Positions 810 to 63,300 of a stretch of 64,000 nucleotides of DNA are shown piece after piece (positions within the stretch are counted from its first letter, which is position 1; every line of letters begins with the position of its first letter). The notes under the pieces were generated by a model. That model had not been told where the DNA came from and did no database searches. It saw only the letters and a program-made list of their open reading frames with translations. The stretch is taken from NCBI RefSeq assembly GCF_900187265.1, contig NZ_LT906450.1, forward strand, positions 1,603,444 through 1,667,443. Direction: 5' to 3'. A program made the position numbers and the translations under genes. This DNA comes from Rhodococcus rhodochrous (lineage in GTDB: Bacteria > Actinomycetota > Actinomycetes > Mycobacteriales > Mycobacteriaceae).

Positions 810-983
810 CGCCTCCACACAGCGCCGTCGCCGTCGATGCAGTTCAGCGCATCGGCGGCGACGGCGCGTCGAAGTGTCACGAGCGTCACGTGGGACCGGA
901 AACGGGCATGTCGATCGGTACTTCTAAGGTGGACATGCCCGTATCCGTCGACGGGCGGAAGGACGTCCGCAGGGGTGAGTGGA

Positions 984-32400: not shown

Positions 32401-32883
32401 CTTGACAACCTTGCGATCCTGCCTTTCGGAGCTCAGACGCATCAGTTCGACGCGTGAACGCCGGACTTCATCGGCTTCGTCGATTGCGCCGATCGCCTTG
32501 AGGAACCGTTCAGCGGTGTCGAGGGCCCGGTATGCGTCATCCGCTGAGAACGAGCCGTTATGAGCCCAGGTGTTGCGGACGTCCCGCAACTCGGTAGCCC
32601 AGGACTGTTCTGTGCGAGACAGGTGCTCACGGAACGGATACCAGCCCTTGCGGACCTGATTCGGAATCTGTTCGGTTATCATGCGCAGACCGTTCTGCGG
32701 GTCGGTTCGCACATAGGTCTTGGGGGCACCAGATCCCTTAGCCTTGTCGCGCACCGCTATCAGCGCGGTCCAGTCCTCGCCAGCCGGTAGTTCCTTACCT
32801 ACGACGTAGTTGTGGAACTCATCCAGCGCAGGACCGAGAAGCTCGAAGATCCGACCGATCCGGTCGCGGTTGCTCACAGCCAT
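29488..32883 (-). CDS. DUF499 ATPase with N-terminal Swt1-type HEPN domain
   Basis: 1,131 residues. The first 130 form a Swt1-family HEPN-like domain with RNTWAH (Arg103-x4-His108), the R-x4-H motif of HEPN ribonucleases. Then the DUF499 P-loop domain: NLQTNFGGGKTHSMLAVWH near residue 250, Walker B VVLIDEWVAYARQL near 365, and a helical central region. A Gly/Ser/Thr linker of about 45 residues (near 1005-1050) precedes a small C-terminal alpha/beta domain. DUF499 ATPases occur beside DUF1156 methylases in defence islands of bacteria and archaea and resemble the large ATPases of BREX. It starts 13 bases after the methylase gene stop, so it is the last gene of that operon. Whether the HEPN motif cleaves RNA is inferred. 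Confidence 0.85.
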   Translation of the reverse strand: MAVSNRDRIGRIFELLGPALDEFHNYVVGKELPAGEDWTALIAVRDKAKGSGAPKTYVRTDPQNGLRMITEQIPNQVRKGWYPFREHLSRTEQSWATELRDVRNTWAHNGSFSADDAYRALDTAERFLKAIGAIDEADEVRRSRVELMRLSSERQDRKVVKTNAAAEIGADGLEPWRLVLKPHEDVQSGNFHAAEFAADLAMVSREEGDPEYTDPVEFFARTYLTDGLKYLLVPAMQRLAGDPNAAPIINLQTNFGGGKTHSMLAVWHLASGRPLSDYPQEVQDLFAGTELPRAKRVAIVGTDIKAGEVKVMPDGTRINTIGGLLAWRLGGAEGYAMVAESDANRLNPGGEALRELFTRFGPAVVLIDEWVAYARQLVGRDDLPDGTFDAQFTFAQALTEAAKAVPGTLVLISIPASAEMKDGEYVGDEEEVGGQNGREALRMLRKAVGRVADQWRAANAEESFHIVRRRLFETPDATALAKINATAKALVAFYVKNSNDFPREVRELDYEERIRRCYPIHPELFDRLYQDWSTLERFQRTRGVLRLMNVIVGQLWRDNDTAPLIMPGSVPLRADKVVTELTQYLDDQWKALIDTDVDGPNSAPAQVDNGNQLLGQRLTTQRLARTVFMGATPTLTSAHKGIDKQRIFLGTALPGDVPGNFHSALNHLANTATYFYNSGSLYWYDTQANTTRTARDYAERLHREDVWAEVVRRLQNHRRTADDGFTGVHIAPESSADVPDVQEARLVVVPPAYLHERKAKAESPAAVWARDIVEHRGTAARTHRNMVSFLAADEARWSELESAVRDFLAWSFIRDNADKDLNLTAAQRQQAIDRAATHNQAVADRLLQTYHWVLIPTQYDPTRPLEIEAFKADGTTTDLAARAAGKLRNESLLVLQRNASLIRHDLSGRLKTAWDRDGHISFGQLWDYYTTYPYLSRMRDRTVLENGVLSVFDEMLWQQTGFALATEWDGENYVGLTLPSDRVTPPQVTDALLLVQPDRAEAQREREVEDLGGGTGDVGSDGNGTGDAGSGTGTGKSSSGSTGSGNGTGGGAPLKTRFFGSTALNPDFYVRDFNKITNEMIQHLAAADGVHLEVRVEITASTPKGFDDSKVRTVSENATVLKFEQAGFEEE

Positions 32884-32896
32884 GACAAGGTTCCTT

Positions 32897-35686: not shown

Positions 35687-35805
35687 GAGGCGGGGTCCTT
35701 CTCTACGTACATCGGTGCTTCTGGAGCGTGGTTACGGGAAACAGTAGTGGTCGGGCGTGCCAGGATCCGGCGGCGGTGCCCGATCAGGTCGGGACGGTGA
35801 GATTG

Positions 35806-39309
<3,504 letters not shown>

Positions 39310-39340
39310 GCGGCCTCCCTCCCACTTCAATCACGCATCA

Positions 39341-45768: not shown

Positions 45769-47862
45769 TCAGAGGATCGGCACGAGGAACGGGCTGGGAT
45801 CGCCGTGCCAGGTCACGAGCAGCTGTTCACGCGCGCGAGTACACGCGACGAAAAGCAGCGAGCGCTCTCGCTGCAGATCCCGCTCGTGTGTGTGCTCGTC
45901 CTCGCTTGCCGGAGTGACGCCATAAGGTGCCGGAAGCTGACGGTCCGTCACCGCGCCCACTACCAAGCACCGGAATTCGAGGCCTTTCATGCGGTGCATC
46001 GTTCCGATCGCGACATTGTCTGTGTCATCGCGCGAATCGGAAAGGTTGGAGGTCGGAATATTGTACTTGCTCAGGGCAACTGCGAGGGCCTCGCAGAGTT
46101 TCTTGGAACGAGCCGCGATACCGATCTCGGACGGAGACACTCCGCTGTCGAGCCAGTCTCGAACCTTCTCAGCGATGTACGTGAATTCTGCATCGCGGGT
46201 GCTGAAACCCCTGACCTCGGGAGCGTCACCGTGAATGTCGGAACGGCAGCCGGCGATCGAGTCGAGGTTGTCGTTCATGTCGTCGATGCGGCACCCTCGC
46301 ATCAGGCCCAGGCTCCATCGAAGGATCTCTGCCGTGGTGCGGTAGTTGATGGACAGGCGGCTCGACCGCCCGGTCACGTTGACGCCGAGCTCACGCAGGC
46401 TGACGTGGTTGTTGTAGATGCGCTGGTGGGTGTCGCCGGCGAGGAACAGATCATCGGGGCCATCGGCCACCGCCGCACGCAAGAGCCGCCACTGATCAGG
46501 ACTCAGGTCTTGCGCTTCGTCGACCACTATGTGCCGATACGGCTTGTCGGTCTGCTGCTCGAGGATACGGGTTGCTTCTCGCCGGATAGTGTCATGAGTG
46601 TGCAATTTCCGGGTCTTCAGTGCTTCCTCGAACTCCCAGACCACTTGCCACACCTGAGCTTTCTGCGTGGCGCCGAGACGCCGACCCCGGCCCGTCCGCT
46701 TGGCTGCGAGATACTCGGAAGCGGAACTCACGCGTTGGGCGAGAATGACCTGCCGCCATTCCTCGCCGAGGAACGCTTCGGAGAAATCGATGGCGAAATC
46801 GTCGATGATGCTGCGCCATATCTTCTTCTCGTCGACGGGGCTGAGTATTCGTGGGTTGCCGTGTTCCTCTCGGAACACGCGGTGAGCGAGTCGATCCACA
46901 TGCTGGACGACGATGCGGGACATGACATCAGGATCCTTCACTAGCATCCCGATGCCGTCCTTGAGCGAGTCGGCCAAGGTGGAGGTGAAGGTGGTCACGA
47001 GAACCGGACCCTCGCCGCGTGCGGCCAGTCGCCGCGCCCGGTGCAGGGCGACCACCGTCTTCCCGGTTCCGGGGCCACCAGCTACGCGGGAGGGTCCGCG
47101 GTAGGCGGCATCGACGACGGACTGCTGAGCCGGATGCAGGTAGATCCGCCAGAGCGCGAAAGGGTTGGCGAAGACCGCCATCATCTCCGCAGGACCGTCG
47201 ACGAGCAGGACGCGATCCGAACTACGTTTGATCGCGGTGTCGAGGTCGTTCGTGTCGACCGGGCCGTCAAGAATAGCTGCCCCAAGGTCCGCCCATACTT
47301 CGTCGGGCGTCATGCCAGCGGCCAGACCGTAGAGGACCTGCCACTGGATGCTGGGGAAGAAGGGCTGGGCAGCTTCGAGTTGAGAGTCGTCGGTGAGAAG
47401 CCGGGCGAAACGGATGGCCTTGTCATCGAGACCGAGGCGCACCAGTTCGCTGTCTTTGATGTGCTCGAAGAGATAACGGGTAGAGAAATTTCGTGGCTGA
47501 TGGTCGAGCTGCGCAAGCTGTTCGTCGAAGGTAATGTCGTCGCGGACCTCAATCCGACCGTTCACTCTGTTTACGGATATGTTGCGGCGCTCTGCCCACA
47601 CGTAAGCATCGTCGTGGGGGAGAACCTTCAGCAGGGTGTAGACATCGCCCTTCTGGGGTGCGAGGACGATACCGCGCCAGAATTGTGTGATGCGGATGGA
47701 TCGGAAGTGCGGGTTACGTGCGTTCTTGATTTTTTCCAGGTGGAGCCCGGCGTGTGTGGCAGCGTCGAATTTCCCGAACACTTCATATACCCGACTCTGG
47801 ACTGTTTGATCGAGTTCTGCGAAGTCGAGAAGAAAGTCCTTGTCGATCGCAAGTGACGCCAC
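45769..47862 (-). CDS. RelE/ParE-like domain fused to UvrD/Rep helicase
   Basis: About 697 residues from GTG 47862, preceded by GGGGAGGAAAACGA; an ATG at 47919 lies in frame but lacks such a site. The first 95 residues read like a RelE/ParE-family toxin fold (DKDFLLDFAELDQTVQSRVY, then PHFRSIRITQFWRGIVLAP and LPHDDAYVWAERR). The helicase follows: GGPGTGKTVVALHRARRLAA near residue 260, VVDEAQDLSPDQWRLLRAAV near 445, SINYRTTAEILRW, and AIGTMHRMKGLEFRCLVVGA near 620, with LFVACTRAREQLLVTWHG at the end. SF1A helicases of this kind act on 3' tails in repair or defence. Whether the RelE-like part cleaves RNA, or only binds, is unknown. Single gene, no antitoxin seen beside it. Confidence 0.85.
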   Translation of the reverse strand: MASLAIDKDFLLDFAELDQTVQSRVYEVFGKFDAATHAGLHLEKIKNARNPHFRSIRITQFWRGIVLAPQKGDVYTLLKVLPHDDAYVWAERRNISVNRVNGRIEVRDDITFDEQLAQLDHQPRNFSTRYLFEHIKDSELVRLGLDDKAIRFARLLTDDSQLEAAQPFFPSIQWQVLYGLAAGMTPDEVWADLGAAILDGPVDTNDLDTAIKRSSDRVLLVDGPAEMMAVFANPFALWRIYLHPAQQSVVDAAYRGPSRVAGGPGTGKTVVALHRARRLAARGEGPVLVTTFTSTLADSLKDGIGMLVKDPDVMSRIVVQHVDRLAHRVFREEHGNPRILSPVDEKKIWRSIIDDFAIDFSEAFLGEEWRQVILAQRVSSASEYLAAKRTGRGRRLGATQKAQVWQVVWEFEEALKTRKLHTHDTIRREATRILEQQTDKPYRHIVVDEAQDLSPDQWRLLRAAVADGPDDLFLAGDTHQRIYNNHVSLRELGVNVTGRSSRLSINYRTTAEILRWSLGLMRGCRIDDMNDNLDSIAGCRSDIHGDAPEVRGFSTRDAEFTYIAEKVRDWLDSGVSPSEIGIAARSKKLCEALAVALSKYNIPTSNLSDSRDDTDNVAIGTMHRMKGLEFRCLVVGAVTDRQLPAPYGVTPASEDEHTHERDLQRERSLLFVACTRAREQLLVTWHGDPSPFLVPIL

Positions 47863-48261
47863 TCGTTTTCCTCCCCGGTCGACGGAACCGCAGAAATGCG
47901 GATCCGCTGTGCCTGTCATTTCGACACCGGGAGACCTTACCTGTGTGGGGAGCCACCTCTGCGACCGCGTTCCGACCTAATGGGTGCTACCGACCCCACG
48001 ACTGTGGCAAGGTTCGGTGTTGGTGGCGACCGGTGGGATAACCCTCTCAAGACCAGGCGTGGCCGTCCCCGAGCAGTCGGGCTGATGCCTGAACTCAGAC
48101 CGTGTACCCGCCGGTCGTGAGGGAAGCGGTGATCGCTGATGGGATGACGTACCCCGATGCCGCGCGTGTCGGTGAGTACTCGAGCCATTAGGTCGACGAC
48201 TGCTTTCCTCCGCTACCGGACCGAAAAATAGTGGATAGCAGCCTGTTCGGAGAAGCACTCC
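47863..48261. other. Non-coding stretch upstream of the IS110 transposase
   Basis: About 400 bases without a gene. The part nearest 48262 is presumably the left end of the IS110 element, where this family encodes a structured guide (bridge) RNA. I see short complementary blocks (for example GGTGCTACCGACCCC and GGTGGCGACCGG near 47986-48045) but could not fold the region or place the element end. Confidence 0.35.
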
Positions 48262-49503
48262 ATGTTGTTCATCGGCGATGACTGGGCGGAAGGCCATCAC
48301 GACATCGAGGTCGAAGACGACGTCGGCCGCCGGTTGGCGCGGATACGGCTGCCCGAGGGCGTGGAGGGGCAGGCCCGATTGCACGAGATGGTGGCCGAAC
48401 ATCTCGGTCCTGACAGCACCGGCAGCAGTGACCTCCCCGAGGATGCAGTCGTGGTCGGGATCGAAACCGATCGTGGGGTGTGGGTGTCGGCGCTGCTCGC
48501 CTGCGGATACCAGGTCTATGCGATCAACCCGATGTCGGCGGCACCATATCGGGAACGGCACGGCACCTCGGGAACCAAATCCGACGCCGGCGACGCTCAC
48601 GTTCTCGCCGAGATCGTCCGGCTCGACCGCGGCCATCACCGCCAGATCGCAGGGGACTCCCCGCAGGTCGAAGCCCTGAAATTGCTTGCCCGGGCCCACC
48701 AAGGCCTGATCTGGGACCGGACCCGGCACCTGCAGCGGATGCGGTCGGCGCTCCGCGAGTACTTCCCGGCCGCATTGACCGCGTTCGACAACCTCGCCGC
48801 CCCGGACACCCTGGCATTGCTGCGCAAGGCTCCCGATCCGGATCGCGCAGCACGACTGACCACCGCGCAAATCACCGCGGAACTGGCCCGGGCGCATCGG
48901 CGCGGGGACCGCACCGCCACGGCCACCCGCATCCGCGATGCGCTGCGGGCACCGTCGCTGCGGCAGCCGGCTGCAATCGAACATGCCTACGAGGTCGTCG
49001 TGGCCGGACACGCGGGCATGCTCGAGCACCTGGCCGAGCAGATCGAGGAGCTCGAGCAGGAGGTCAAGCGCAGTTTTCATAGGCACCTGGCCGCTGAGAT
49101 CGTCCGCAGCTGTCCCGGACTGGGGGATGTCCTGGGCGCCCGGGTGCTGGCAGAATTCGGCGACGATCCGCACCGATACCGCAATGCCAAAGCCCGCAAG
49201 AACTACGCCGGGACCTCCCCGATTACCCGAGTATCAGGAAAGAGGAAGACGGTGTCGGCGAGCTACGCCCGCAACAAGCACCTGGCCGATGCGTGTCATC
49301 AGTGGGCGTTCTGCTCGATGAATACCTCACCGGGCGCACGGGCTTATTACGACGCTCTGCGGGCCCGGGAGGTCGGCCACCATGGCGCGCTTCGTTAACT
49401 CGGTAACCGGCTCGTCGGGATCCTCCACGGATGTCTCGAGACCGGCACGATCTACGACGAAAGCACCGCCTGGCCCCAAGTTCCCACACAAGCCGCGGTT
49501 TGA
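48262..49503 (+). pseudogene. IS110-family DEDD transposase with late nonsense codon
   Basis: The frame from ATG 48262 to 49398 encodes 378 residues: a RuvC-like DEDD domain (FIGDDWAEGHHDIEV, VVGIETDRGVWVSALLACGY, GTKSDAGDAHVLAEIVRLDR) and a Tnp_20 domain (RSCPGLGDVLGARVLAEFGD, YAGTSPITRVSGKRK). TAA at 49396 then interrupts a sequence that continues in frame for 34 more residues (LGNRLVGILHGCLETGTIYD and on) to TGA 49501, as in full-length relatives. The loss is small and after the catalytic residues, so partial function cannot be excluded. IS110 enzymes insert without target duplication, guided by an element-encoded RNA. Confidence 0.8.
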
Positions 49504-52027: not shown

Positions 52028-53791
52028 TTATTTGGATCCGCAGCGACACTCAGGATCGTTCGACCGACGCTTACATACCCCGCAGGGCTGGTAGTAGAGG
52101 CGTTCGTCGACCTGGACCTGCGGAGGATTCTTCGCGCGACTGAAGTACGTCGAGTTGTATGTGTACAGCAGCTCGCCGGGCACGTACGAGTCATCCTTCT
52201 TATCAGCGATGTTGGCGCGGATCACGACCGCACCACGCTCAGAAGCTTCTTCCCTGGCCTCTACCGGCGGACCCGGATCGTCTGCAATTCCGGACACCGC
52301 ACTTGCCGAGCCAAGGGAGATGCCGAACTCCAGATCGTGGAGTGACACCGTCTCGGGGACTTTTCGCAGCTCTGATCTTCCGGTCGCATGCAGCACGCCG
52401 TCGGCATCGACGACAGTTCGTAGCGTCAAGCGCTCGATGAAAGGCCTCGCATGCTTGTCGACATCGATACTGAGGTTCCCAAGTTCGTCGCGGGGATCCG
52501 ACCGCTGCGCATTGCCCCCTGGACGGCTCGGGGTGCAGAACTGGAACTTGGCATGGCCGTCCCGAGGATCAGCGCAGTACAGCTCCACGGCATTGCCCGA
52601 CAGTTCCTGTCCTTCGAACGGCACCTGAGTACCGGCGCGTAGCAACCGATGATAGGAACCACGAGCCAAGCGAACCTCGATGTCCTTCGCCAACTGCAGC
52701 TGCTGCCGGTCGTAGGCGATCCACGCTGCGCCCTGAGCGATGAGCGTGCCGCTGTTCTTCGAAACTTCGACGCGGTGTGCCCCGAAGAACTCCCTGAGTC
52801 GAGCTGCGATCGCCGGCATCCTGGACATGCCCCCGGTGACCAGGCATAGCGCGACCTGCGAGTCGCTGATATGCGCCGCATCCAGCAGGGAGACCACATG
52901 GTCCATTGCTCGATCGATGAGCGGCTTCGAGATGGTCTCGAGGTCGGATCGGGTCACTTGGTGCATCAACGCGGCTCCAGTGTCCGGATTGAAGTTCCGG
53001 ATGTAGAGCGTTGCAGATTCTTCCTCGGACAGCGCAATTTTCAGATTCTCACACTTGTGGCGAAGCTGTCGTCGACGATCTGGGTCCACATCACCAGGCT
53101 CGTCGGTGGCGTGCATGAGCACCCAGTTCCGAAGAGCGTCATCGAAGATGTCGCCACCCAATGCGCCGGTGCCACTGTTCTGGAGCTGGACGACCCGCCC
53201 GTCTTCGAGTCGACACAACGTGAGGTCGAAAGTGCCGCCACCCCAGTCGACTACCAGGATGTTCTTCCGGTCGAATCGGCGGACAAAATCAGTTCCCAGT
53301 TTGGGTCGGAAGTGTCCGTAAAGCGCTGCGAACGGTTCGTGGACGAACTGGACGACTCGAATCCCTGCGCGGGCGTATGCCTCGCGCAGTGCGCGACGAC
53401 GGTGGCCATTCATATCGACCGGGATCGTCGCGACAGCGTCCGAAATGGTGGATAAGAATCCGGGATTTCTGGTGGAAGCGAGAGCGCGGTCCTTCACGTG
53501 CTCGATGACATCGTGCGCCACGTCGACCGGGCTCATCTCGACCCCACCTACCGTGATGGTCTCGTCACCCAGATATGTCTTGGGCGACTTCACGAAATCG
53601 CCGTGTACTCCGAGGCCGCTGGCGTCCAGGGCAAGTTTGGCCTCTTCGCCGACCAACTTCTGGACGCCCTCGTACTTCACAATCGAAGGCGTCGGTTGCC
53701 CCTGGTCATCGAGAAGTTCATGGACCTTCTCCGAGTCGACAACGCACACCAAGCTGTTCGTAGTGCCGAAGTCGAAACCTACAACAGTCAT
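52028..53791 (-). CDS. Hsp70/DnaK paralogue with cysteine-rich tail
   Basis: 587 residues. The actin-like ATPase domain is complete: GFDFGTTNSLVCVVD (phosphate 1) at residue 4, AVATIPVDMNGHRRRALREA, FVHEPFAALYGHF, ILVVDWGGGTFDLTLC (phosphate 2) near 188 and LVTGGMSRMPAIAARLREFF (adenosine) near 315. The substrate-binding part is shorter and more divergent than in DnaK, and there is no lid or EEVD-like end; instead the protein finishes CGVCKRRSNDPECRCGSK, a C-x2-C...C-x-C cluster likely to bind zinc. So this is a specialised Hsp70, not the housekeeping chaperone. Its start is 9 bases after the stop of the preceding disordered protein, the last gene of a four-gene operon. Confidence 0.88.
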   Translation of the reverse strand: MTVVGFDFGTTNSLVCVVDSEKVHELLDDQGQPTPSIVKYEGVQKLVGEEAKLALDASGLGVHGDFVKSPKTYLGDETITVGGVEMSPVDVAHDVIEHVKDRALASTRNPGFLSTISDAVATIPVDMNGHRRRALREAYARAGIRVVQFVHEPFAALYGHFRPKLGTDFVRRFDRKNILVVDWGGGTFDLTLCRLEDGRVVQLQNSGTGALGGDIFDDALRNWVLMHATDEPGDVDPDRRRQLRHKCENLKIALSEEESATLYIRNFNPDTGAALMHQVTRSDLETISKPLIDRAMDHVVSLLDAAHISDSQVALCLVTGGMSRMPAIAARLREFFGAHRVEVSKNSGTLIAQGAAWIAYDRQQLQLAKDIEVRLARGSYHRLLRAGTQVPFEGQELSGNAVELYCADPRDGHAKFQFCTPSRPGGNAQRSDPRDELGNLSIDVDKHARPFIERLTLRTVVDADGVLHATGRSELRKVPETVSLHDLEFGISLGSASAVSGIADDPGPPVEAREEASERGAVVIRANIADKKDDSYVPGELLYTYNSTYFSRAKNPPQVQVDERLYYQPCGVCKRRSNDPECRCGSK

Positions 53792-53800
53792 ACTGTGTCC

Positions 53801-56113
53801 CTACTTGTCCTCTACCGCGTCGGGCTGGAGGGCATTCAAGCCCTTCCGGAACTTGATCACCGAGCGAGACACGAATTCGTCGGTGACTTGGGTATGTCCG
53901 TGCTTGAGAGCATCGAGTGCGTCTTCGAGTACCTCGATCTGATCGGCGATCAGCTTCGCCGTGTCAACTCGAAGAATCTCGAACGAGTTCGTGGAGCTCA
54001 TTCGTTCACTTCTGCGCGCGTTGACTTCTTCGTCGAGAGCTGCGCGGACCCCTGACAACTCGAGTTCGAGTTCCTTCACTCGACCGCGAACGGTCGCCAG
54101 TTCGTCCATGAGCCGCGCATTCTCGGCGTGGGCGATGTCGACTCGGGCAAGTGCGGAATCGCGCTCCGATTCGACTGCACGAATACGCTCGCGCGCAGAG
54201 CCAACGATTACCGCTGCCGCTCGGCGCGTGCTCTTCGGGATCGTCGCGAGCTTCTCTCGATCAGCCGTCGTACCGGACTGAACAGACGGGGCATCCCAGA
54301 CCTCGTCTGCCAGTGCGTCGATGTACTGCGAGAGATCCCATTGTGCGGCGGAACCGGCAAGAAGGACCACAATGTGAACGGCGTTGTCCTGCAATGCCTG
54401 CAAGGTGGGTGCCTTCAACGACTCTCGCCCGTCGAATGGACGGCCCACGAGGTTCTCGACCCGTACGACGGTCTGTGAAAGCGTCTCCGTATCGGCCGTT
54501 TCGGTGCGGAGTAGTTCCACTCGGTCCTGGAGCGGTTCGTCGCCGATGAACGCTGGGTGCTGTGTCAGGATTCGGGCTGCCAGCTCTGCAATATTCTTCC
54601 GCGCTGTACCGCTCAGCTCCGATTTCTCGGTTGTGAGTAGCAACGCGAGGGCGGTCGCGAGCTTGGTGTCGCGCGCAGCGACGGCTGCGATACGGTCCTG
54701 AAGCGGCGTCAAGTCGATCGGCTTGGCGACAGCGATGCGTGCGGGAGTGCTCCGTCGCATCTCGAACGGTTTGAGGTCGCCGTCGAGTTCCTCGAGGTAT
54801 CGGAGAAAGTCACTGAACGATTCGACAGCATCGAGCGTCAGTTTCTCAGCGGCCTCGCTCGGAGCAGACGCGACGTCGGTCGGCTTCTGGTTGGGCTCGG
54901 ATGCTCCCACCTCGACGACTGGCAGCGGGTCATCCGTCGGATTGGTCGCCGGCGCACCGGAGGCCTCCTCAGTCGGTTCCGCGTCAACTTTCTCGGTTTC
55001 CGAGGCGCCCTCATCGTTACTCGAGCTCGCTACGGAAGCTGCTGTCTCGTCGGTTGACGGAGCGACGGCGGTCGCTTTGCTGTTCGGAACCGAGGTGGCC
55101 ACGTAGTCGGCCGGCTCGGATCCTTCGGCAACCGGTTCCGTTGTGGCGGTTGTGTCGCCTTCCGGAACCTCGATTTCGGAGTCCGTGCCTGTAGCTTTGT
55201 CCAGGGTGCGCTCGGCGTTGACCACGTCGGAGGACGGCGACGTCGTCTCAACAGCGGGAGACTGCTCGTCTACTGTGACTAGCGAGACGGCATGTGTTGG
55301 TTCGGAAACCAACTCTGGTGCGGCCGATTCTTCGCCGGCTTCAGTGACTGGCGAGAAGGGAGTGGCGACTCCCACCTCCGCAACCTCGGTGGTCTCGGAT
55401 TGCGTGGATGTTGTTTCGTCCGACGACGCCGGGGCGTCCGTCGGCTCTGTATGCGGCGATGCCGCCGACACCTCCGACGAGGGACCCGTCATCGTGATTT
55501 CGACTTCCGCCACGGCAGGAGTCGGTCCAGCAACGGACCTGTGCTCGGCCGACTCTCCGTCGGTTTCGGTGCCTTTGACGGGGTGCTGGACGTCAGCGCG
55601 TTTGCTGATGTCTCCCACGGGGGTGTATCGGCGATTCTGGTTGTCCTTGCGTCGGCGCCGGCCCGGCCCGAGAGCGTTGGTTCGAGGTTCTCGGTCGGCG
55701 GAACGGTCGGTTCCAGGAAGACCGGAGGAGCTGGCCGCGGCCGAGGGCTTCGATTTGTTCCTGTGGTTCGGCCGTTGGCGCCTGTCCTCGCCGTTTCCGC
55801 GGGGACCGGCTGTCCCGTTGTCGGGACGGCTCCCGTGCGGCTGTTCGACGTTTCGCTGTTCCTTCGCGGAGTAGGAGTGCTTGTCGGAGTGTTTGCGCTG
55901 GTGGTGCCCGCCGGAGTGCGTCGCTCCGTGCTTCTTGACGGTTCGCTTGGCGCGTTGGCCTGCCCCTTGACGTTGGGCATCCTGCGATTCGGCGTGCTGT
56001 CGTCCGTCGTGCTCGCCTTTCCGCTCGCCGGAGCGGCCTTCGTTGTCTTGCGGCTGTGCGTGATTCGCATTCCGCCGCTTACGGGAGTGGTTGTTGCCGG
56101 AGCCGTGTTCCAT
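53801..56113 (-). CDS. Disordered/coiled-coil protein, GrpE-like position before Hsp70
   Basis: 770 residues if started at ATG 56113 (AAGGA five bases upstream), or 563 from ATG 55492, which overlaps the upstream stop as ATGA. The first 200 residues are Arg/Lys/His/Gly-rich and disordered; residues about 205-445 are acidic, Thr/Ser/Glu/Ala-rich and also disordered. The folded part (about 445-770) is helical: FSDFLRYLEELDGDLKPFEM, TPLQDRIAAVAARDTKLATA, then a clear coiled coil (ESERDSALARVDIAHAENAR onward, LKELELELSG-like heptads) and a final helical segment ending in AVEDK. No family is known to me. Directly followed by the Hsp70 paralogue, so a nucleotide-exchange or adaptor role is conceivable. 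Confidence 0.75.
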   Translation of the reverse strand: MEHGSGNNHSRKRRNANHAQPQDNEGRSGERKGEHDGRQHAESQDAQRQGAGQRAKRTVKKHGATHSGGHHQRKHSDKHSYSAKEQRNVEQPHGSRPDNGTAGPRGNGEDRRQRPNHRNKSKPSAAASSSGLPGTDRSADREPRTNALGPGRRRRKDNQNRRYTPVGDISKRADVQHPVKGTETDGESAEHRSVAGPTPAVAEVEITMTGPSSEVSAASPHTEPTDAPASSDETTSTQSETTEVAEVGVATPFSPVTEAGEESAAPELVSEPTHAVSLVTVDEQSPAVETTSPSSDVVNAERTLDKATGTDSEIEVPEGDTTATTEPVAEGSEPADYVATSVPNSKATAVAPSTDETAASVASSSNDEGASETEKVDAEPTEEASGAPATNPTDDPLPVVEVGASEPNQKPTDVASAPSEAAEKLTLDAVESFSDFLRYLEELDGDLKPFEMRRSTPARIAVAKPIDLTPLQDRIAAVAARDTKLATALALLLTTEKSELSGTARKNIAELAARILTQHPAFIGDEPLQDRVELLRTETADTETLSQTVVRVENLVGRPFDGRESLKAPTLQALQDNAVHIVVLLAGSAAQWDLSQYIDALADEVWDAPSVQSGTTADREKLATIPKSTRRAAAVIVGSARERIRAVESERDSALARVDIAHAENARLMDELATVRGRVKELELELSGVRAALDEEVNARRSERMSSTNSFEILRVDTAKLIADQIEVLEDALDALKHGHTQVTDEFVSRSVIKFRKGLNALQPDAVEDK

Positions 56114-57207
56114 GGGGGTCCTTCATCGGTAATGCAATCCAAACGGGCGTTCACCCAATGGTCGGGCAGACCATTCTTACTACCCGCGCGTACGAGCGGT
56201 GCGGCGCGGGGGTCTCCTGTCGCCAGATGATGTTCCGTGATGAAGAGCGCTGCCTTGGTCAGGTCGTATCCGTCCACCGTCGCAAGGTCGAAGTTGGAGA
56301 CCTCCGCAGAGCTTGCGCTGGACAACGGGAGACTGCACAACTTGATGAGATCTCGGGTCCGATCATCCGCGAGCAACTGTTCGAGGTGTGAAGGTGTGCC
56401 GGGAATCTCGATCAAGTCTGCTGGGGTCGTCCGGACCGTCAGCATCCGGCCCAGGCGTTCCGCAACCATCCCAAGGTGTGGGCTGAGGGCGCGATGCGCG
56501 GCCTCACCGAACTGATTGAAGTGGAACGAGATCAGGCTGGTGACGGCCAGGGAAGCCGGGCGGTGGAGGTCGCGCAGCATGTCGGCAGCCTTGTTGAGCT
56601 TTTCACGATTTCGGACCTCGGCTGTGGCGTCGAGGACCTGCCCGCGCCCTGCGAGCCAATAGAGGTACTCGGTAATTCCTCCGGCGTAGTTCCGGGCTGT
56701 CGGGAAGGCGAGAGTCCGCTCGAAAAATGCGTTGATCGAACTCGAGTTGACAACTCCGTCTGCGATGAAGCGAGCAAGCTCCTCCTCTACGCCGCGAAGA
56801 TCCGCTTCCTCAGCGATAGCGAAGTCGAACTCGTATTCTCTCTGCGACCGGTCGTTGCCCAGTCGCACTTCGACTATCCCTCGATCGACGGACAGAAGAC
56901 GACCGACCTCGTCAGGGTCGACGTCGATTCCGTTCAGGTGTGCCCTCGTGCAGTTCGTGAGCGACCAGTCCGCCGGGTCGGTTCGGACCTGAACCAGCTC
57001 CCGTCTGTTCCCGCACGGTCTTCCTCTCAGGAGCAGAACGGGGTGAGCAACGGGATGTGCCACGAACACGTGCTCCCGCAGGTCTGCGAGCGTAGTGAAG
57101 GTTGCGTGGCAGTCGGAGCACGGCAGCGCCGGTGGTGTTACAGGGCGAGGAGGAGCTGCGTACAGCTCCTCATGGAAGTCCGCGTATCCGGAAGACCAAT
57201 GGGCCAA
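55489..57207 (-). CDS. C2H2 zinc-finger protein of unknown function
   Basis: 572 residues. Near residue 29 it has CSDCHATFTTLADLREHVFV followed by AH, i.e. C-x2-C-x12-H-x4-H, a classical C2H2 finger, rare in bacteria. Next comes a strand-rich domain (ELVQVRTDPADWSLTNCTRA, VDRGIVEVRLGNDRSQREYE), then a helical domain (residues about 130-360: NREKLNKAADMLRDLHRPAS, LEQLLADDRTRDLIKLCSLP). From about residue 365 the sequence is Thr/Pro/Ser/Arg-rich and disordered; this last 200 residues overlaps the next gene in another frame for 625 bases. The gene starts 78 bases after the stop of the giant helicase and belongs to the same operon. Function unknown; nucleic-acid or protein recognition is likely for the finger. 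Confidence 0.75.
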   Translation of the reverse strand: MAHWSSGYADFHEELYAAPPRPVTPPALPCSDCHATFTTLADLREHVFVAHPVAHPVLLLRGRPCGNRRELVQVRTDPADWSLTNCTRAHLNGIDVDPDEVGRLLSVDRGIVEVRLGNDRSQREYEFDFAIAEEADLRGVEEELARFIADGVVNSSSINAFFERTLAFPTARNYAGGITEYLYWLAGRGQVLDATAEVRNREKLNKAADMLRDLHRPASLAVTSLISFHFNQFGEAAHRALSPHLGMVAERLGRMLTVRTTPADLIEIPGTPSHLEQLLADDRTRDLIKLCSLPLSSASSAEVSNFDLATVDGYDLTKAALFITEHHLATGDPRAAPLVRAGSKNGLPDHWVNARLDCITDEGPPWNTAPATTTPVSGGMRITHSRKTTKAAPASGKASTTDDSTPNRRMPNVKGQANAPSEPSRSTERRTPAGTTSANTPTSTPTPRRNSETSNSRTGAVPTTGQPVPAETARTGANGRTTGTNRSPRPRPAPPVFLEPTVPPTENLEPTLSGRAGADARTTRIADTPPWETSANALTSSTPSKAPKPTESRPSTGPLLDRLLPWRKSKSR

Positions 57208-57285
57208 AGGTTGATCCTGTCTACGTCAAATCCGATTGGAATTACTCGACATTCGGGGACGCTCCCCGCATGCACAGGACTGCAC

Positions 57286-60200
57286 TCACGCTCCCGCGCG
57301 AATCGTCCTTCCTACCTGAATGAGCCGGCCGTTCGCCAGGCCGAGATCGAGGCACGCTTCGAGACGATCTCGGCTGGGCCCGCCGAGTCGACTCTGGTTG
57401 AAGAGAGCCATAGTCTCCCGAATGAGGGTCTCGACATCGAGTTCCCGTCCCATACAAGCTGCATTCATTGCGTTGACGATCTCCTCGGGCGCGATCTCGT
57501 TGAGTGAGCGGGTCACATCGTCAGGCGTCGTGCGGAACCCGCGCCAGGTGGTTCGGTCCAACTGACGAGGCCATACGAAGCTGCCCAACGGGGTGGCGTG
57601 AATCAATTCGGGTGGTACGCACTCGCCGACGAACGCCTTCCGTGCTGCCTTGACTCGCTCGAACCCGAAACGTCTCGCGACGACCCGTGTCAATCTGTCC
57701 AGCAGAATCGGACCTTCGATCTCCACCGTTTCACGCACCGCGTCGGTGATGACCCGTCGCACCGAAGCGGAGTTGACGCGATCGAGATCGTCGCGTTCTC
57801 CGAGGGGAGTGGTCGGGGCACAGGTATATGCGACGCCGCGACCGTGCCAGTCGCGTTCGGTGGAGGACGGCACCACATCTTCGTCGAAGTGAAGTGCCGG
57901 GGCTGTCATCGTCGCGGCACCTGCGACGAGCTCGTGCCGTTCCTCCAACGCCGCGCCGGCTTCAGGCATGTGCTCGGGCTCGTCCTTCTCGAAGGTGAGA
58001 TCGGCCAGCACATCGAGGTTTTCGACGACGACCTCTTCTGCGGCGCGCGCTTCCGACTCCGCGATCTCGATCGCGCGCGCTTCGGCTTCCCTTGCGAGCT
58101 GCTCTTCGTACTGACGCCGTCGTTCACGTGCTGTATCGACAGCAGTATCGATGCGATCGAGCACCGCTCCGGGATTCTCGATCCACTCGGGAAGCCACAC
58201 CCGCACCGATGAACCCCAGTGCATCAGAGTTTCGAGCAGGCGGGGAGTGAGGTCGCGGTCGGACACCGTCGGGCGACCGGCCCAACGCGGGCCGTCCAGC
58301 ATCACCGCAACCTGCCAATGCGCGGAATCGGGCTCTCGCACAACGATGTCGAGAACGAACTCGGACAGTCCGTAGTTCGTGGTCACCTCATACCCGCGGT
58401 CGGCGAGGGCCGTGCAGATGCTGCGCTGGACGGCGTCGACGTTGTCGTTCGTGGTTACCGACGGGCGGGGCGCCACCCGCTGCGCCGCCATTTCCAGGTA
58501 GCCCCGGAGGTGTGCGAGTCCCACGGACTTGGTGCGCGACAGATCGATGTCGGACGGATCGAACGATGTGAAGATGACGACCTTGCGACGCGCCCGCGTG
58601 ATGGCGACGTTGAAGCGCTTTTCGCCACCCGACCGGCTCAGCGGACCGAACTGGAGCGGAAGCTGGGACTCACCGGGCTTCTTCGAGAACGCTGTGGTGA
58701 ACAGGATGACGTCGCGTTCGTCGCCCTGGACGTTCTCGAGGTTCTTGACGAAGATGCCCTCTTCCTTGTCCGGCCGGAGCTGCTCGCGGACGAGGGGGTC
58801 GTCGCATGCCTCCAGGAGATCCTGAACGAGGACGCGTTGCTGGAGGTTGAAAGTGACAACGCCGATGCTCTGACCCGCCAGGCGAGGGGTTGCGAGCCGC
58901 GTGCGGATCTCCTCGACGATGGCTTCTGCTTCGACGCGGTTGGTGCGATATCCGTCCTTGCGATTCTCGCGATTGAAGTGACCGCTGACGCGTCGCCACT
59001 CGACACCTGCCGTGTCGTCCCCGCCGGGAGACGGCAGGCTGGCGAGGCGCCCCTCGTAGTACTTCTGGTTCGAGAAGTTGATGAGCGTCTCGTCCTGACT
59101 GCGGTAATGCCACGACAACCACAGACGTGGAACTCCGGACTCGACGCACTCGGTGAGAATGCTCTCGAGATCCTCCGGTGCGATCGTCCCGTCCTCGTCC
59201 ACCTCGTCGTCGTCGACTGCACTGACCTGGCCGAACGTAGACGGCGGCATCTGCTGCGAATCACCGACGATGACGGCCGCGCGGCCCCGGCCGAGCGCCC
59301 CGATGGCCTGTGCGACGGTCACCTGAGACGCCTCGTCGAACACGACCAGGTCGAACGTGGCCGAGCCCGGCGGGATGAACTGAGCCAACGACGTCGGACT
59401 GACGAAAACGCAGGGCGTCGCAGCGAGAATGTGGCGTGCATACCGGGCCATGAGGTTACGGAAGGTCGCGCCACCGCGTTTACGTTCGAGTGCCCGGCGC
59501 AGTTCGCCGACTTCACCCTGCAACGCACCGGCCTGGAACGGCCGCCGGGACAGCAACGCGGCCGGCAGTGCCCGGACCTGCTCGTCGCGCAGCGCCTCTG
59601 CGCTCCGCACGAAATCCGAGATCTCACCGTCACGCAGGGCGGTGGTGAAGTTGACGACGCCGGTGGTGCGTCGCCGCTCTTCGAGCGAAGCGCGCGCCGC
59701 GCCGCGAATGAAGGCGACAGGTGCCACTGCCGCCGGGATCCGTCCGGTGAGCAGGGCTTCGACGAAGTCGTGTAGTTCTGCGCGACGCAGGGGCTCGAGA
59801 TATGCGGACATCCGTGACCACGCGAGAAAACGCTGACAACCGCCGTATTGCGCCTCTTCTCGCACTGCGTGGCTGTCCCGCTGCCACGCCGCGAGCCAGT
59901 GGTCGCCGTTCACCCAACGGGCCACATCAGCATCGGACGATCCGAGAGTTGAACGCAGACTCACCCAAGCGCCGGCGGTTTCGTCGAGTGCCCGAATCTC
60001 GGGTTCAGTCAGGAAACCGGCGGATTCGAGCTCCTTCCACAGCCCCGGTGCTTCGTCGACGAAACGGATGGTGTCGTCGATGTATTCGAACACCGGCCGC
60101 AGATCGTCGGCGCATGTGGGGGCGAGCGGATTCCAGGTGGCCGGAGCAAAAGGGCCGAGGAGGTCGCGCACGGCTGCGCGGAGGTGGGCGACCTGCTCGC

Positions 60201-63200
60201 GGGCCATGGGGATCATCCGCAGCAACGGAAGCACGGCCTGGGGTGCGAGGTCTGCATCCGGGTGGGCGAACGGTGCGAGGCTCCGCTGGAACTGCTCGGC
60301 CTTCTTCTTCTTACCGAAGAGGCCCTTGTCGCACTCCTCTGCCTCGGCGATGAAGAACTCGATGTCGCCCGACTCCAAGAACATCGGAACGAAGGTGCGC
60401 AACACGGGCGCGCAATTCTGATGTGCACGGTCGATGTCGACGAAGAGCGCTTCACGTCCGGCCGCGAACTGCGGGCTACGCATCCACGCGAGCGTCGCCG
60501 CGTCGGGAATCTGACGGCCGAGCTGACGGCGCGCCTGGGGGAGCAGCGCGACGACATCGTCCGGTGCCTGTACCCGTTCGAGAAGTGCGCGCGTACGAGA
60601 ACTCGTCAACGCTGCGTCGATGGCATCCGCGAAGCGGAGCACCGCGAGAGACACGTGCTGGTCTTCGATTCCGGGCGGAATCGACCCGGCCAGCGACCAC
60701 GGAGAACCCAGGCGGATCTCCAGGGAATGAGCGGCACGAGAGAAGAGCTCGAGAGTGTCTCGAATCGTGGCCCAAGGCTGAGTGGGTCGTGCGACATACC
60801 AGGCGGGGATCGGCGCAATCGGTCCGTCGCCGACCTCGAGGACGGATTCGAAGGCGCGCCACAAGGACTGATCGATGCCGTTGCGGCTGTGGATCTTGTT
60901 CGGGTAGTCGGCCAGGGGCGCCAACTTCGACCTGTATTCGGCAACCTTCGCGTCCCAGTTGTGGGAGTTGTAGTACAGGTTGTTGTCGATGGCCGTTTTG
61001 AGCTGTTCACGGATTGCGCTCGGGCTCTGGCTCTTCCCGTGCAGATCGAGCGTGAAGTTGCTCAGGCCGACCTTCGAGATGCGCTTCTTGACCACGTCCA
61101 GCGCGGCCTGCTTCTCCGCTACGAACAAGACGGTCTTTCCGCGCTCGAGCGCGTGAGCGATCAGATTGGTGATGGTCTGGGACTTGCCGGTTCCGGGAGG
61201 GCCTTCGATGACGAATGTGCGTCCGGATGCGGCCAGCGAGACCGCCCGTAGTTGCGATCCATCTGCAGGGATGGGGACGGGAACGGACGCCTCGTCCACC
61301 TTCACACTGTCGAGGCTCTCGTTGCCGAGCGGGTCGCGGAACGACTCTCCGGCATGGTGTGTGAGGTGCCGGACGATGGGGCTCTGCTCGAGGATGTCCC
61401 AGTGCTCGTTGAGGTCCTTCCACATCCCGAAGGTGCCGAACTGGCAGATCGCGACGGTGGCAACCTCGTCGACCCGCAGGTCGATGTTGTTCTCGACGAG
61501 CGCAGCCCGGATACCGCGGAGGGCATGATCGATGTCGAGGCCGCTGTCGTCCAGTTTCGGGGACTCGAGAGCGTCGATCGACACGTTGTGTTTGAGGCGA
61601 AGCCATTCGACGAGGCAATGGTTGGGAGTCGCCACCTCGGTGGTGTCGACCGTGATCTGAAACGGCTTCCGCCCGGTTCCGCCGACGATACGGATCGGCA
61701 ACAAGAAGAGGGGAGCGCGGGCTTCCGCGCCCGTGGACGTGCGGTGGATCAGCGCACCGAGCGTCAGATAGAGGTTGGCGCTGCCGGTTTCCTCGAGCAT
61801 GGTGCGTGCCGTGCGAGAGAGTTCTTTGAACCGCTTCGCGTACAGGTCGCGTGAAATCGCGCCGTACATACGACGGTCGTCGGTCAGATAGGACAGCAAC
61901 ACATCGGATTCGATCTCGGAGGCGCGCCGTGCACCCTGCAGTTCGTGGATCGACGCCAGTTCGTCGTGCGGGACGAGAGTGATCGCGTGGCCGGAATGGA
62001 TGATGTCGTCGAGCTCTGAAAGCCCGCCCTGAGGTACGTGAAGATCGATGACCTGGGCCGACGGCCGCAGGTTCAACAGGCGGTTTCGGGTACTCAGATC
62101 GAGCAGGGCACGCTTCCACTTGCGAACCCTCGGGGGCGAGTGATCGGTGGTATCGAGAACCAGGTCGTCGGCATTCCTGCCGGCCGTCAGCTCGTCGGGA
62201 AGGGTGAGAACGACGTCGTGAAGATCCGCCGGACGAGGCTGAGGTGTCGGCGCAACCTCATCGGTCGAGGGCAGTGGACGAATGCCACTCTTCCTCGCCG
62301 CGACGATGTCGACAACACCGTTCAGCTTTTCGGGAGTTGCAAAGTACTCCCGAGCCCGCTTCATCGCACCCTTGAAGTCTCCGGCTTCGGCCTGGTTGTA
62401 GTAGACGGCATCCACTGCTACGGCTTTGCCCGACTCGACGAGATTGACGAGTGCGTTCGGCTCGGTCATGGTCGGATGGGGGAGGGACACGTCGCCACTC
62501 AGGAACCCGGCGAATGCATGACCGTCGACGAGCCAGAGCAACGGCCGGAGCCCGACCTCTTCGAGGCACGCGGCGTAGGTGACCGCCAAGTCGATGCAGG
62601 TACCGAAGCTCTGTTCGAGGACCTGCGCCGTGGTGCGAACCTTCTGTCCGGTGTTCTCGAACGAGGCCGGAGGATCGATGTATCGGATTCCTCGGGCGCG
62701 CAGCGATTCGTAGATGGCTGCGGCGATGAGCGCAGCTCGTTCCGGACCGTTCTGGTACCCCTCCAGCGACGAACTGCCGGTGTTCGCGCGCAGTAGCTCG
62801 GCAGCATCGCCGAGAACCGACTGCACGGCCGACGTGTTGGGCTGGACGAACGCAGCCAGGCTGTCGTAGAAGATCGGGGCGTTGAACCACTCGTTGTGTG
62901 CGAGGACCCGAATCGGAATCGTCAGATGAAGATCGGGTGCCCACATCGTCGACACGGTGACTGCAATGGTCGCCGGGTGCGCTTCGTTCAGTGCACGCAG
63001 ATAGGGGATCGCAGGGACGAAGCCCGTAAAGTCGTCCCAGTAGGTCTCGGCGCCGTCGAGAAGGTCGCCGTCGTGTGTCCGGGTCCAGACCGGCGCGAGC
63101 TCCTCACCATTGCCGAGCATGCGGACGGTGACGGTCGTGTCGACCGCGGGCCTACCGGATGCGTTCGTGACGCGAAGCTCCGAGATCATCGGGACGGAGT

Positions 63201-63300
63201 TGTGGACCAGTGCCAGGTTGACTGCCGGCTGGAAGAGTATCCGAACCCGGAGCCCGGACTGTTCGTCGGTCTTCTCTTGCCACAACGAGTCGTGTCTCAC
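57286..63300 (-). CDS. Giant DUF4011 SF1 helicase with nuclease-like and DUF3320 domains
   Basis: 2,004 residues. A beta-rich N-terminus leads to a transglutaminase-like domain with GTCIDLAVTYAACLEEVG (Cys235) and WLVDGHAFAGF (His261). DUF4011 begins near 391 (RVRKWKRALLDLSTRNRLLN). The SF1 motor has IEGPPGTGKSQTITNLIA near 700, LVVFDEASQVTVAQAIGALG near 1320, VGDSQQMPPSTFG, and NVENVQGDERDVI-like and RFNVAITRARRKVVIFTS motifs near 1530-1580. A DUF559/Vsr-like domain (GYEVTTNYGLSEFVLDIVVR) lies near 1635, a charged coiled coil near 1720-1770, and DUF3320 near 1890-1960 (GSFVWPRQLDRTTWRGFR). The DUF4011-helicase-Vsr architecture has been reported as a single-gene anti-phage defence (Hhe). Here it heads a four-gene operon. 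Confidence 0.88.
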   Translation of the reverse strand: MRHDSLWQEKTDEQSGLRVRILFQPAVNLALVHNSVPMISELRVTNASGRPAVDTTVTVRMLGNGEELAPVWTRTHDGDLLDGAETYWDDFTGFVPAIPYLRALNEAHPATIAVTVSTMWAPDLHLTIPIRVLAHNEWFNAPIFYDSLAAFVQPNTSAVQSVLGDAAELLRANTGSSSLEGYQNGPERAALIAAAIYESLRARGIRYIDPPASFENTGQKVRTTAQVLEQSFGTCIDLAVTYAACLEEVGLRPLLWLVDGHAFAGFLSGDVSLPHPTMTEPNALVNLVESGKAVAVDAVYYNQAEAGDFKGAMKRAREYFATPEKLNGVVDIVAARKSGIRPLPSTDEVAPTPQPRPADLHDVVLTLPDELTAGRNADDLVLDTTDHSPPRVRKWKRALLDLSTRNRLLNLRPSAQVIDLHVPQGGLSELDDIIHSGHAITLVPHDELASIHELQGARRASEIESDVLLSYLTDDRRMYGAISRDLYAKRFKELSRTARTMLEETGSANLYLTLGALIHRTSTGAEARAPLFLLPIRIVGGTGRKPFQITVDTTEVATPNHCLVEWLRLKHNVSIDALESPKLDDSGLDIDHALRGIRAALVENNIDLRVDEVATVAICQFGTFGMWKDLNEHWDILEQSPIVRHLTHHAGESFRDPLGNESLDSVKVDEASVPVPIPADGSQLRAVSLAASGRTFVIEGPPGTGKSQTITNLIAHALERGKTVLFVAEKQAALDVVKKRISKVGLSNFTLDLHGKSQSPSAIREQLKTAIDNNLYYNSHNWDAKVAEYRSKLAPLADYPNKIHSRNGIDQSLWRAFESVLEVGDGPIAPIPAWYVARPTQPWATIRDTLELFSRAAHSLEIRLGSPWSLAGSIPPGIEDQHVSLAVLRFADAIDAALTSSRTRALLERVQAPDDVVALLPQARRQLGRQIPDAATLAWMRSPQFAAGREALFVDIDRAHQNCAPVLRTFVPMFLESGDIEFFIAEAEECDKGLFGKKKKAEQFQRSLAPFAHPDADLAPQAVLPLLRMIPMAREQVAHLRAAVRDLLGPFAPATWNPLAPTCADDLRPVFEYIDDTIRFVDEAPGLWKELESAGFLTEPEIRALDETAGAWVSLRSTLGSSDADVARWVNGDHWLAAWQRDSHAVREEAQYGGCQRFLAWSRMSAYLEPLRRAELHDFVEALLTGRIPAAVAPVAFIRGAARASLEERRRTTGVVNFTTALRDGEISDFVRSAEALRDEQVRALPAALLSRRPFQAGALQGEVGELRRALERKRGGATFRNLMARYARHILAATPCVFVSPTSLAQFIPPGSATFDLVVFDEASQVTVAQAIGALGRGRAAVIVGDSQQMPPSTFGQVSAVDDDEVDEDGTIAPEDLESILTECVESGVPRLWLSWHYRSQDETLINFSNQKYYEGRLASLPSPGGDDTAGVEWRRVSGHFNRENRKDGYRTNRVEAEAIVEEIRTRLATPRLAGQSIGVVTFNLQQRVLVQDLLEACDDPLVREQLRPDKEEGIFVKNLENVQGDERDVILFTTAFSKKPGESQLPLQFGPLSRSGGEKRFNVAITRARRKVVIFTSFDPSDIDLSRTKSVGLAHLRGYLEMAAQRVAPRPSVTTNDNVDAVQRSICTALADRGYEVTTNYGLSEFVLDIVVREPDSAHWQVAVMLDGPRWAGRPTVSDRDLTPRLLETLMHWGSSVRVWLPEWIENPGAVLDRIDTAVDTARERRRQYEEQLAREAEARAIEIAESEARAAEEVVVENLDVLADLTFEKDEPEHMPEAGAALEERHELVAGAATMTAPALHFDEDVVPSSTERDWHGRGVAYTCAPTTPLGERDDLDRVNSASVRRVITDAVRETVEIEGPILLDRLTRVVARRFGFERVKAARKAFVGECVPPELIHATPLGSFVWPRQLDRTTWRGFRTTPDDVTRSLNEIAPEEIVNAMNAACMGRELDVETLIRETMALFNQSRLGGPSRDRLEACLDLGLANGRLIQVGRTIRAGA

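Follow-up and report, generated by a model that had tools for sequence, protein, structure and literature searches.

In CoCoNuT and related McrBC systems, Hsp70 nucleotide-binding and substrate-binding domains (NBD and SBD) are tied to restriction and to coiled coils, superoperons with type I restriction-modification (RM) and BREX occur, and the Hsp70, which occurs in fusions with McrB- or McrC-type proteins, carries degenerate Walker A-like motifs, according to passages of PMC11090510. The same passages describe the TerY-P triad, a three-gene cassette tied to several restriction systems, and TerY-P-like modules that also stand alone. GTPase-centric conflict systems contain HSP70 and GrpE (passages of PMC7159879), and host DnaJ is required for phage sensing by bNACHT25 (PMC12169576), indicating that a chaperone can take part in sensing. 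Here we analyze a 64,000-nucleotide stretch of Rhodococcus rhodochrous (the window; positions 1603444-1667443 of the 5.27-Mb single-contig genome), in which consecutive genes encode a C2H2 zinc-finger protein, a coiled-coil protein and an Hsp70, together called the triad. The conserved unit is this three-gene module. Its members are inherited together, it is present in seven phyla or more, and it lies repeatedly in or beside differing defense operons. Comparison of these loci suggests a chaperone-based part of bacterial immunity, undescribed so far.

A first-pass annotation, made from the letters of the window without database searches, had proposed four minus-strand genes as a candidate undescribed defense system with a helicase effector, and the positions and gaps that it gave are confirmed (window coordinates; lengths in amino acids, aa):

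52028-53791, minus strand: Hsp70 of the triad, 587 aa, with a DnaK-like ATPase domain and a partly SBD-beta-like region.
53801-55492, minus strand: coiled-coil protein of the triad, 563 aa, with a low-complexity N-terminal half, a coiled coil and a conserved C-terminal segment.
55489-57207, minus strand: zinc-finger protein (C2H2 type) of the triad, 572 aa, TTG start, with one finger, a core and a tail.
57286-63300, minus strand: ProA-family helicase, 2004 aa, with DUF4011, SF1 helicase, MTES_1575 nuclease-type and DUF3320 domains; a partner gene outside the conserved triad.

From the helicase onward the genes are separated by a 78-base gap, a 4-base ATGA overlap (zinc finger/coiled coil) and a 9-base gap. 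The longest coiled-coil open reading frame (ORF) begins at 56113 (770 aa), but the gene most likely begins at 55492, since the ATG there overlaps the zinc-finger stop and overlaps of 4 or 8 bases recur at this junction in many related loci.

The helicase falls into a family that already has a name: it scores above the threshold of NCBIfam NF058533, "anti-phage protein ProA" (1581 bits; cut-off 1500), over its residues 28-1971 and profile positions 1-1903 of 1903, which rules it out as a new kind of helicase. Pfam recovers DUF4011, SF1-type (AAA_11/AAA_12), MTES_1575 (restriction-endonuclease fold) and DUF3320 domains in it, and finds no match at E 0.1 for the transglutaminase-like part that the first reading had proposed. 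Helicase, DUF4011 and nuclease regions are common to this protein, Hhe (DUF4011-helicase-Vsr) and PADLOC PDC-S37, a candidate model without a name; the Hhe model (NF042953) gives 514 bits against a cut-off of 2000. The meaning of the name "ProA" was not found in the open-access literature searched, and a tie to the "Prometheus" system named in passages of PMC12846349 and PMC12629846 is a guess.

What seems new is the triad as a system; its Hsp70 falls within an established superfamily, and ProA within a family already described. No model of PADLOC-DB 2.0.0 recognizes it: the 12 proteins of four triads (window, L084, L092, L057) gave a best E of 6e-4. An effector domain, whether nuclease, toxin or other, was recognized neither in the three triad proteins of the window nor, by PADLOC, in three more triads. 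In the open-access literature searched, some of it broadly, no description of the triad was seen, and the main text of a BREX survey (PMC12839542, NAR 2026) contains neither "Hsp70" nor "chaperone." The four window proteins include no McrB-like GTPase and no McrC homologue by Pfam and PADLOC, and so fall outside CoCoNuT. In contrast to the fused Hsp70 described in the passages on that system, the triad Hsp70 is free-standing, keeps five ATPase residues and has two companion proteins. GTPase-centric conflict systems, as those passages present them, are chaperone-based too, whereas the triad has no recognized GTPase, tubulin, GrpE or DnaJ. It resembles DnaK/DnaJ/GrpE in its Hsp70 ATPase core and its team of three proteins, but differs in replaced J-protein contact positions, a cysteine-cluster tail, no lid seen and no conserved HPD. 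Accessory triads such as TerY-P are the nearest parallel in kind, although TerY-P, in the source passages, consists of a vWA protein, a phosphatase and a kinase.

To define the unit, we scanned 84,980 genomes with the C-terminal part of the Hsp70 alone, aligned from three members, so that neighboring genes were not selected for; the scan requires exact short patterns and thus yields at least 46 loci and no frequency. These belong to Actinomycetota, Pseudomonadota, Acidobacteriota, Binatota, Nitrospirota, Gemmatimonadota and Latescibacterota, with one unclassified. Zinc-finger, coiled-coil and Hsp70 genes follow each other in this single order and on a single strand in 43 of the 46, and such recurrence among loci found by the Hsp70 tail alone is beyond chance. 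Two incomplete loci (L056 and L063) are both cut by contig ends, and in the third (L095) the coiled-coil slot is filled by an unassigned ORF of 333 aa. Median identity is 47% for the Hsp70, 27% for the zinc-finger protein and 20% for the coiled-coil protein; the distance matrices of the three proteins correlate (r 0.840, 0.918 and 0.894; n = 43), and 0 of 1000 permutations reached these values for each pair. In drawn samples the Hsp70 was detected in 1/151 genomes of the family (E 1e-60) and 2/394 of the class (E 1e-50), the window's own genome included, and an independent search with the zinc-finger profile found 2/396 genomes of the phylum, the same two that are Hsp70 positive. The triad is almost certainly a real, co-inherited and often defense-associated unit.

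Which genes surround it? Within 6 kb, the 49 stretches compared (the 46 loci, the plasmid stretches L044 and L045, and the window) hold 334 ORFs of at least 150 aa. From the 46 loci, 35 neighboring proteins, selected for large size or adjacency, were scanned together with 5 of L044/L047. Seven loci have PglX, PglZ and BrxL clusters, which were recognized via L084; in each of them the triad is placed between pglX and pglZ-brxL, in some with extra genes in the interval. By longest-ORF starts, it begins 10 bases past pglX and overlaps pglZ by 13 bases in L084, leaves gaps of 6 and 54 bases in L089, and lies 2 bases past pglX in L093. L086 has a gene between Hsp70 and pglZ that clusters with the L082 gene matching PADLOC Orf5/HEC-06 and with a GmrSD gene of L044. 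In the type I loci L092 and L094 the triad stands directly after hsdS and before hsdR (hsdM-hsdS-triad-other genes-hsdR), followed before hsdR by one ORF in L092 (FRG-domain) and three in L094 (ankyrin, a small ORF, NERD-UvrD). L091 reads hsdM-hsdS-hsdR-triad, then a 656-aa gene, then a McrBC-family (McrC family) gene. L081 has a type III Res gene immediately ahead of the triad and, downstream, encodes a DpdF/GajB-like protein. Nearby genes elsewhere include DrmA (L073) and relatives of L073's DrmA gene (L083); DruE-like and SNF2-type genes (L051); HmaC and an SNF2-type gene (L057); SNF2-type and type IIG genes (L055); TmtA-like and type I genes (L078); LeoBC-like GTPases (L071, L075); and a RAMP gene (L064). 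ProA lies directly upstream in 2/46 loci, both from Nocardia (L050 and L052), and in the window; in L058 a ProA gene is nearby but convergent, on the other strand.

Placing 47 Hsp70 proteins on a quick maximum-likelihood tree, with support from the Shimodaira-Hasegawa-like approximate likelihood ratio test (SH-aLRT), points to exchange of these partners. The sister loci L081 (type III) and L082 (BREX) are joined with a support of 100, a pair in which the partner has apparently been swapped. The BREX label requires 5 changes on the tree, 4 of them forced by well-supported branches, and the ProA label 3. The nearest Hsp70 relatives among the loci found are from Nocardia (up to 76% identity), and the window falls in a clade of five nocardial loci (support 100; inner order not resolved); ProA is the gene directly upstream in three of these, and the other two have genes of the SNF2 cluster.

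The Hsp70 itself departs from housekeeping members. Pfam HSP70 is found in the window protein, which misses the equivalog cut-offs of HscA (TIGR01991, 154.8 versus 708.55 bits) and DnaK (TIGR02350, 145.4 versus 822.55 bits). Residues were read from an alignment of the 47 proteins with the DnaK of the window's genome. The equivalents of the Hsp70 ATPase residues D8, K70, E171, D194 and T199 (E. coli numbering) are each kept in 47/47. At R167, N170 and linker D393, the DnaK positions that answer J-proteins, the triad proteins have Q in 43/47, H in 47/47 and K in 47/47, respectively, suggesting that this is not a canonical J-protein-driven Hsp70. W replaces L in the phosphate-2 loop of all 47, and the motif DWGGGT, with invariant glycines, is present in the 40 Hsp70 proteins compared. 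Against DnaK and other Hsp70 chains the whole-protein profile aligns at the longest to about position 491-562 of 594; the alignment to DnaK spans the ATPase domain together with a portion of the beta substrate domain, with no lid seen, and the tail profile alone matches the DnaK substrate domain weakly (E 0.34). At the C-terminal end is a C-x2-C...C-x-C cluster, with C570, C573 and C582 in 45/47 (two gaps each) and C584 in 41/47. GrpE and a J-protein were considered for the coiled-coil and zinc-finger proteins, respectively, and rejected: no profile supports either assignment, and the HPD motif is not conserved (1/45 zinc-finger proteins, 0/45 coiled-coil proteins).

The zinc-finger protein of the window has its finger at C30, C33, H46 and H51, a core to about residue 365, and then a tail of ~200 residues. 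Alone, it scores below the Pfam zinc-finger cut-off (16.7 versus 25.2 bits); the pattern C-x2-C-x12-H-x3-5-H is present in 45/45 family members. With starts picked nearest the profile start, 42/45 of these proteins are 356-381 aa long, and the remaining three, at 568, 572 and 574 aa, come from the loci with ProA directly upstream (window, L050 and L052); the two closest nocardial relatives without ProA upstream have 366 and 371 aa. The window tail carries DTPPWET and has a basic end; the three tails are of low complexity, have DTPPW[E/K]T in common and finish with tryptophan and basic residues. In the window the stop codon of the tail overlaps the ATG of the coiled-coil gene; in L050 and L052 it lies 8 bases ahead of an in-frame coiled-coil ATG. 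The tail is probably a docking arm for ProA, and its restriction to ProA-linked loci points to the zinc-finger protein as the connector between triad and partner.

What might such a module do? We tentatively favor an accessory ATP-driven machine that serves nucleic-acid-restricting complexes, gating or remodeling them, and swaps partners, a reading to which we give somewhat less than even weight. It is the simplest one because the triad has no recognized effector, sits in the reading order of systems that do have one, changes partner, and in one lineage carries a partner-linked tail. The zinc-finger protein would act as an adaptor that binds the partner or the partner's nucleic acid, and the coiled-coil protein as a scaffold or as a dedicated Hsp70 co-factor that replaces J-protein and GrpE. 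The Hsp70 would cycle on ATP, either keeping the partner inactive or releasing and recycling it upon infection. In the window, the adaptor's long DTPPW[E/K]T tail with its basic end would dock on ProA, and the proposed gating of the helicase by the Hsp70 would be one form of such control. A broader version, which we hold with more reserve, is a general immune chaperone, that is, a J-protein-free Hsp70 machine with a zinc-finger adaptor, a coiled-coil partner and exchangeable adaptor ends. It would plug into BREX, type I and III restriction, and DISARM-, Druantia-, Hma- and ProA-type systems and decide when they act. Large restriction machines must spare host DNA yet switch on against phage; if the proposal is true, a shared ATP-driven module within their operons in many phyla would give bacterial immunity a common layer of control, and a housekeeping Hsp70 would have been recruited for immunity and freed from J-protein control.

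Several observations weigh against the accessory machine. For the zinc-finger core, a PDB search returned no convincing solved relative (one match, E 0.24), and the coiled-coil profile recovered coiled-coil segments only, with no effector or co-chaperone fold recognized. The link between tail and ProA comes from three related nocardial loci of the clade with unresolved inner order, the triad of L058, with its ProA gene on the other strand, has no tail, and identical columns over the tail number 30/237, 28/241 and 17/224 in the three frames, which does not single out the reading frame. On the tree, 22/500 shuffles of the BREX labels needed as few changes as observed, and the BREX locus L093 is on a long branch, as is L095. 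PADLOC matched 21/26 neighbor proteins (9/10, 8/8 and 4/8, within the limits used), which is no rate, since the proteins were picked as large or adjacent and there is no background figure; other neighbor assignments were made via similarity clusters, and gene starts are longest-ORF starts. Seven loci (L054, L069, L070, L076, L079, L080 and L090) have no neighbor that was scanned or linked to a scanned one, and L060-L063 and L066 lie, by eye, among apparent housekeeping genes (enolase, Era, transporters, sulfatases), L060 and L063 additionally having a PLD-like and a DUF4062-like ORF (by eye) within about 4 kb.

The main rival, which is quite possible and which we take seriously, is that the triad is a complete defense system that travels with other defense operons and is slotted into them. 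BrxU-type nucleases occupy the pglX-pglZ slot in other BREX loci, and the gene between Hsp70 and pglZ in L086 shows that an additional gene with Orf5/HEC-06 and GmrSD kin can stand in this interval. The diversity of partners and the copies without, by eye, a recognized defense neighbor (L060-L063 and L066) also fit a stand-alone system. However, the triads inspected lack a recognized effector, the zinc-finger tail tracks ProA, and fourth and further genes follow in actinobacterial loci. Should the triad nevertheless act by itself, it would be a system without a recognized effector.

Less probable, and on balance unlikely, is that the triad guards the restriction system in which it is embedded and triggers a second line when phage inhibits that system. 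PrrC in EcoprrI offers an analogy, and the triad of L092 (beside an FRG-domain gene) and L094 (beside ankyrin-repeat and NERD-helicase genes), between hsdS and hsdR, would fit such a guard; the requirement of bNACHT25 for DnaJ lends a chaperone sensor some plausibility. Against this reading, no effector is recognized in the triad, no constant effector gene adjoins it, and copies exist with no recognized defense neighbor.

It is more doubtful still that the four window genes form one obligate system with ProA as its core, as the first-pass annotation had it. The four-gene operon does recur, in the two Nocardia loci besides the window, where full-length helicases 68% (L050) and 64% (L052) identical to the window's accompany the long zinc-finger tail found only there. 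Among 296 genomes of the phylum, 118 have some match at E 0.001, and 6, including the window's genome, exceed the ProA cut-off. We compared 10 other ProA-like loci from 9 genomes, 20 kb each, 6 over the cut-off and 4 under it. Zinc finger and coiled coil were found in 0/10 of these surroundings, and an Hsp70 in 1/10, a distant one in L035 (E 5.5e-24; 532-2187, minus strand). A constant ProA partner was looked for and rejected, since the ten loci have, at the limits used, no neighbor family in common except ProA. Conversely, 44/46 triad loci have no ProA directly upstream, L054, L056, L063, L067 and L095 among them being cut close upstream, and the N. elegans genome (L051) has the triad and no ProA match at E 1e-50. 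Of the original proposal, an undescribed, defense-linked and chaperone-containing unit stands, as far as searched, as the triad, whereas all four genes in a row are seen in the window and the two Nocardia loci. The first-pass annotation had held that finding the Hsp70 and its neighbors mainly without the helicase, in non-defense contexts, would speak against it; they do occur mainly without the helicase, but their contexts are often defense genes and sometimes none recognized. The triad can also be used as a search handle, and more defense operons may be found through it.

That the triad is an ordinary stress chaperone cassette, near defense genes since both are mobile, is hardly credible: it has Hsp70 kinship, copies among apparent housekeeping genes (by eye) and insertion sequence (IS) elements adjoining some copies in its favor, but against it stand its placement within BREX and type I operons, a few bases from the adjoining genes, altered J-protein contact positions and a rare, patchy distribution.

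Further genes and carriers extend the picture. A fourth gene, Pa4, which encodes a coiled-coil protein, follows the Hsp70 in 11/46 loci, all actinobacterial (L070-L072, L074-L080 and L090), and in the Paenarthrobacter plasmids L044 (15310-16650, plus strand) and L045, and in no nocardial locus; its best PADLOC match has E 4.5e-4. In Streptomyces L074 (12231-16639), L071 and L075, two more genes follow Pa4, one of 584 aa and of no family, the other of 885 aa with no Pfam match at E 0.001 and, in the same protein of L047, a sub-threshold PLD match. A scan of viral_contigs for a virus-borne triad had 36 pattern matches, none of them a relative of the Hsp70 tail, a single Buttiauxella Hsp70 DNA query had no match in 20,395 E. 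coli records, and Halomonas- and Shewanella-type Hsp70 queries for further plasmid copies returned only the two Paenarthrobacter plasmids at E 1e-60. The window's order of zinc finger, coiled coil and Hsp70 is kept on both plasmids, with no match to the window's helicase in these stretches. In both, an IS3-family transposase gene interrupts the zinc-finger gene, and in L045 the fourth gene is likewise interrupted; the IS3-split regions are as follows:

L044, 10001-12392.
L045, 8338-10792 and 13710-16311.

The window region is a dense defense island. By PADLOC, a Druantia-type set occupies 18181-27646 on the plus strand (DruF, DruL4, DruE4 with 2423 bits, DruK), and an Hma-type set 29488-39330 on the minus strand, with HmaC at 29488-32883 and HmaB at 32897-35686; the place expected for HmaA is taken by an SNF2/Helicase_C/NOV_C protein at 35806-39330. 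A second helicase of 1541 aa, related to PDC-S37/Hhe/MkoA, lies at 837-5462 on the plus strand. Adjoining the four-gene operon are a GajB-like/NERD-UvrD-type helicase (45769-47919, minus strand) and, by eye, an IS110-type transposase (48262-49398, plus strand).

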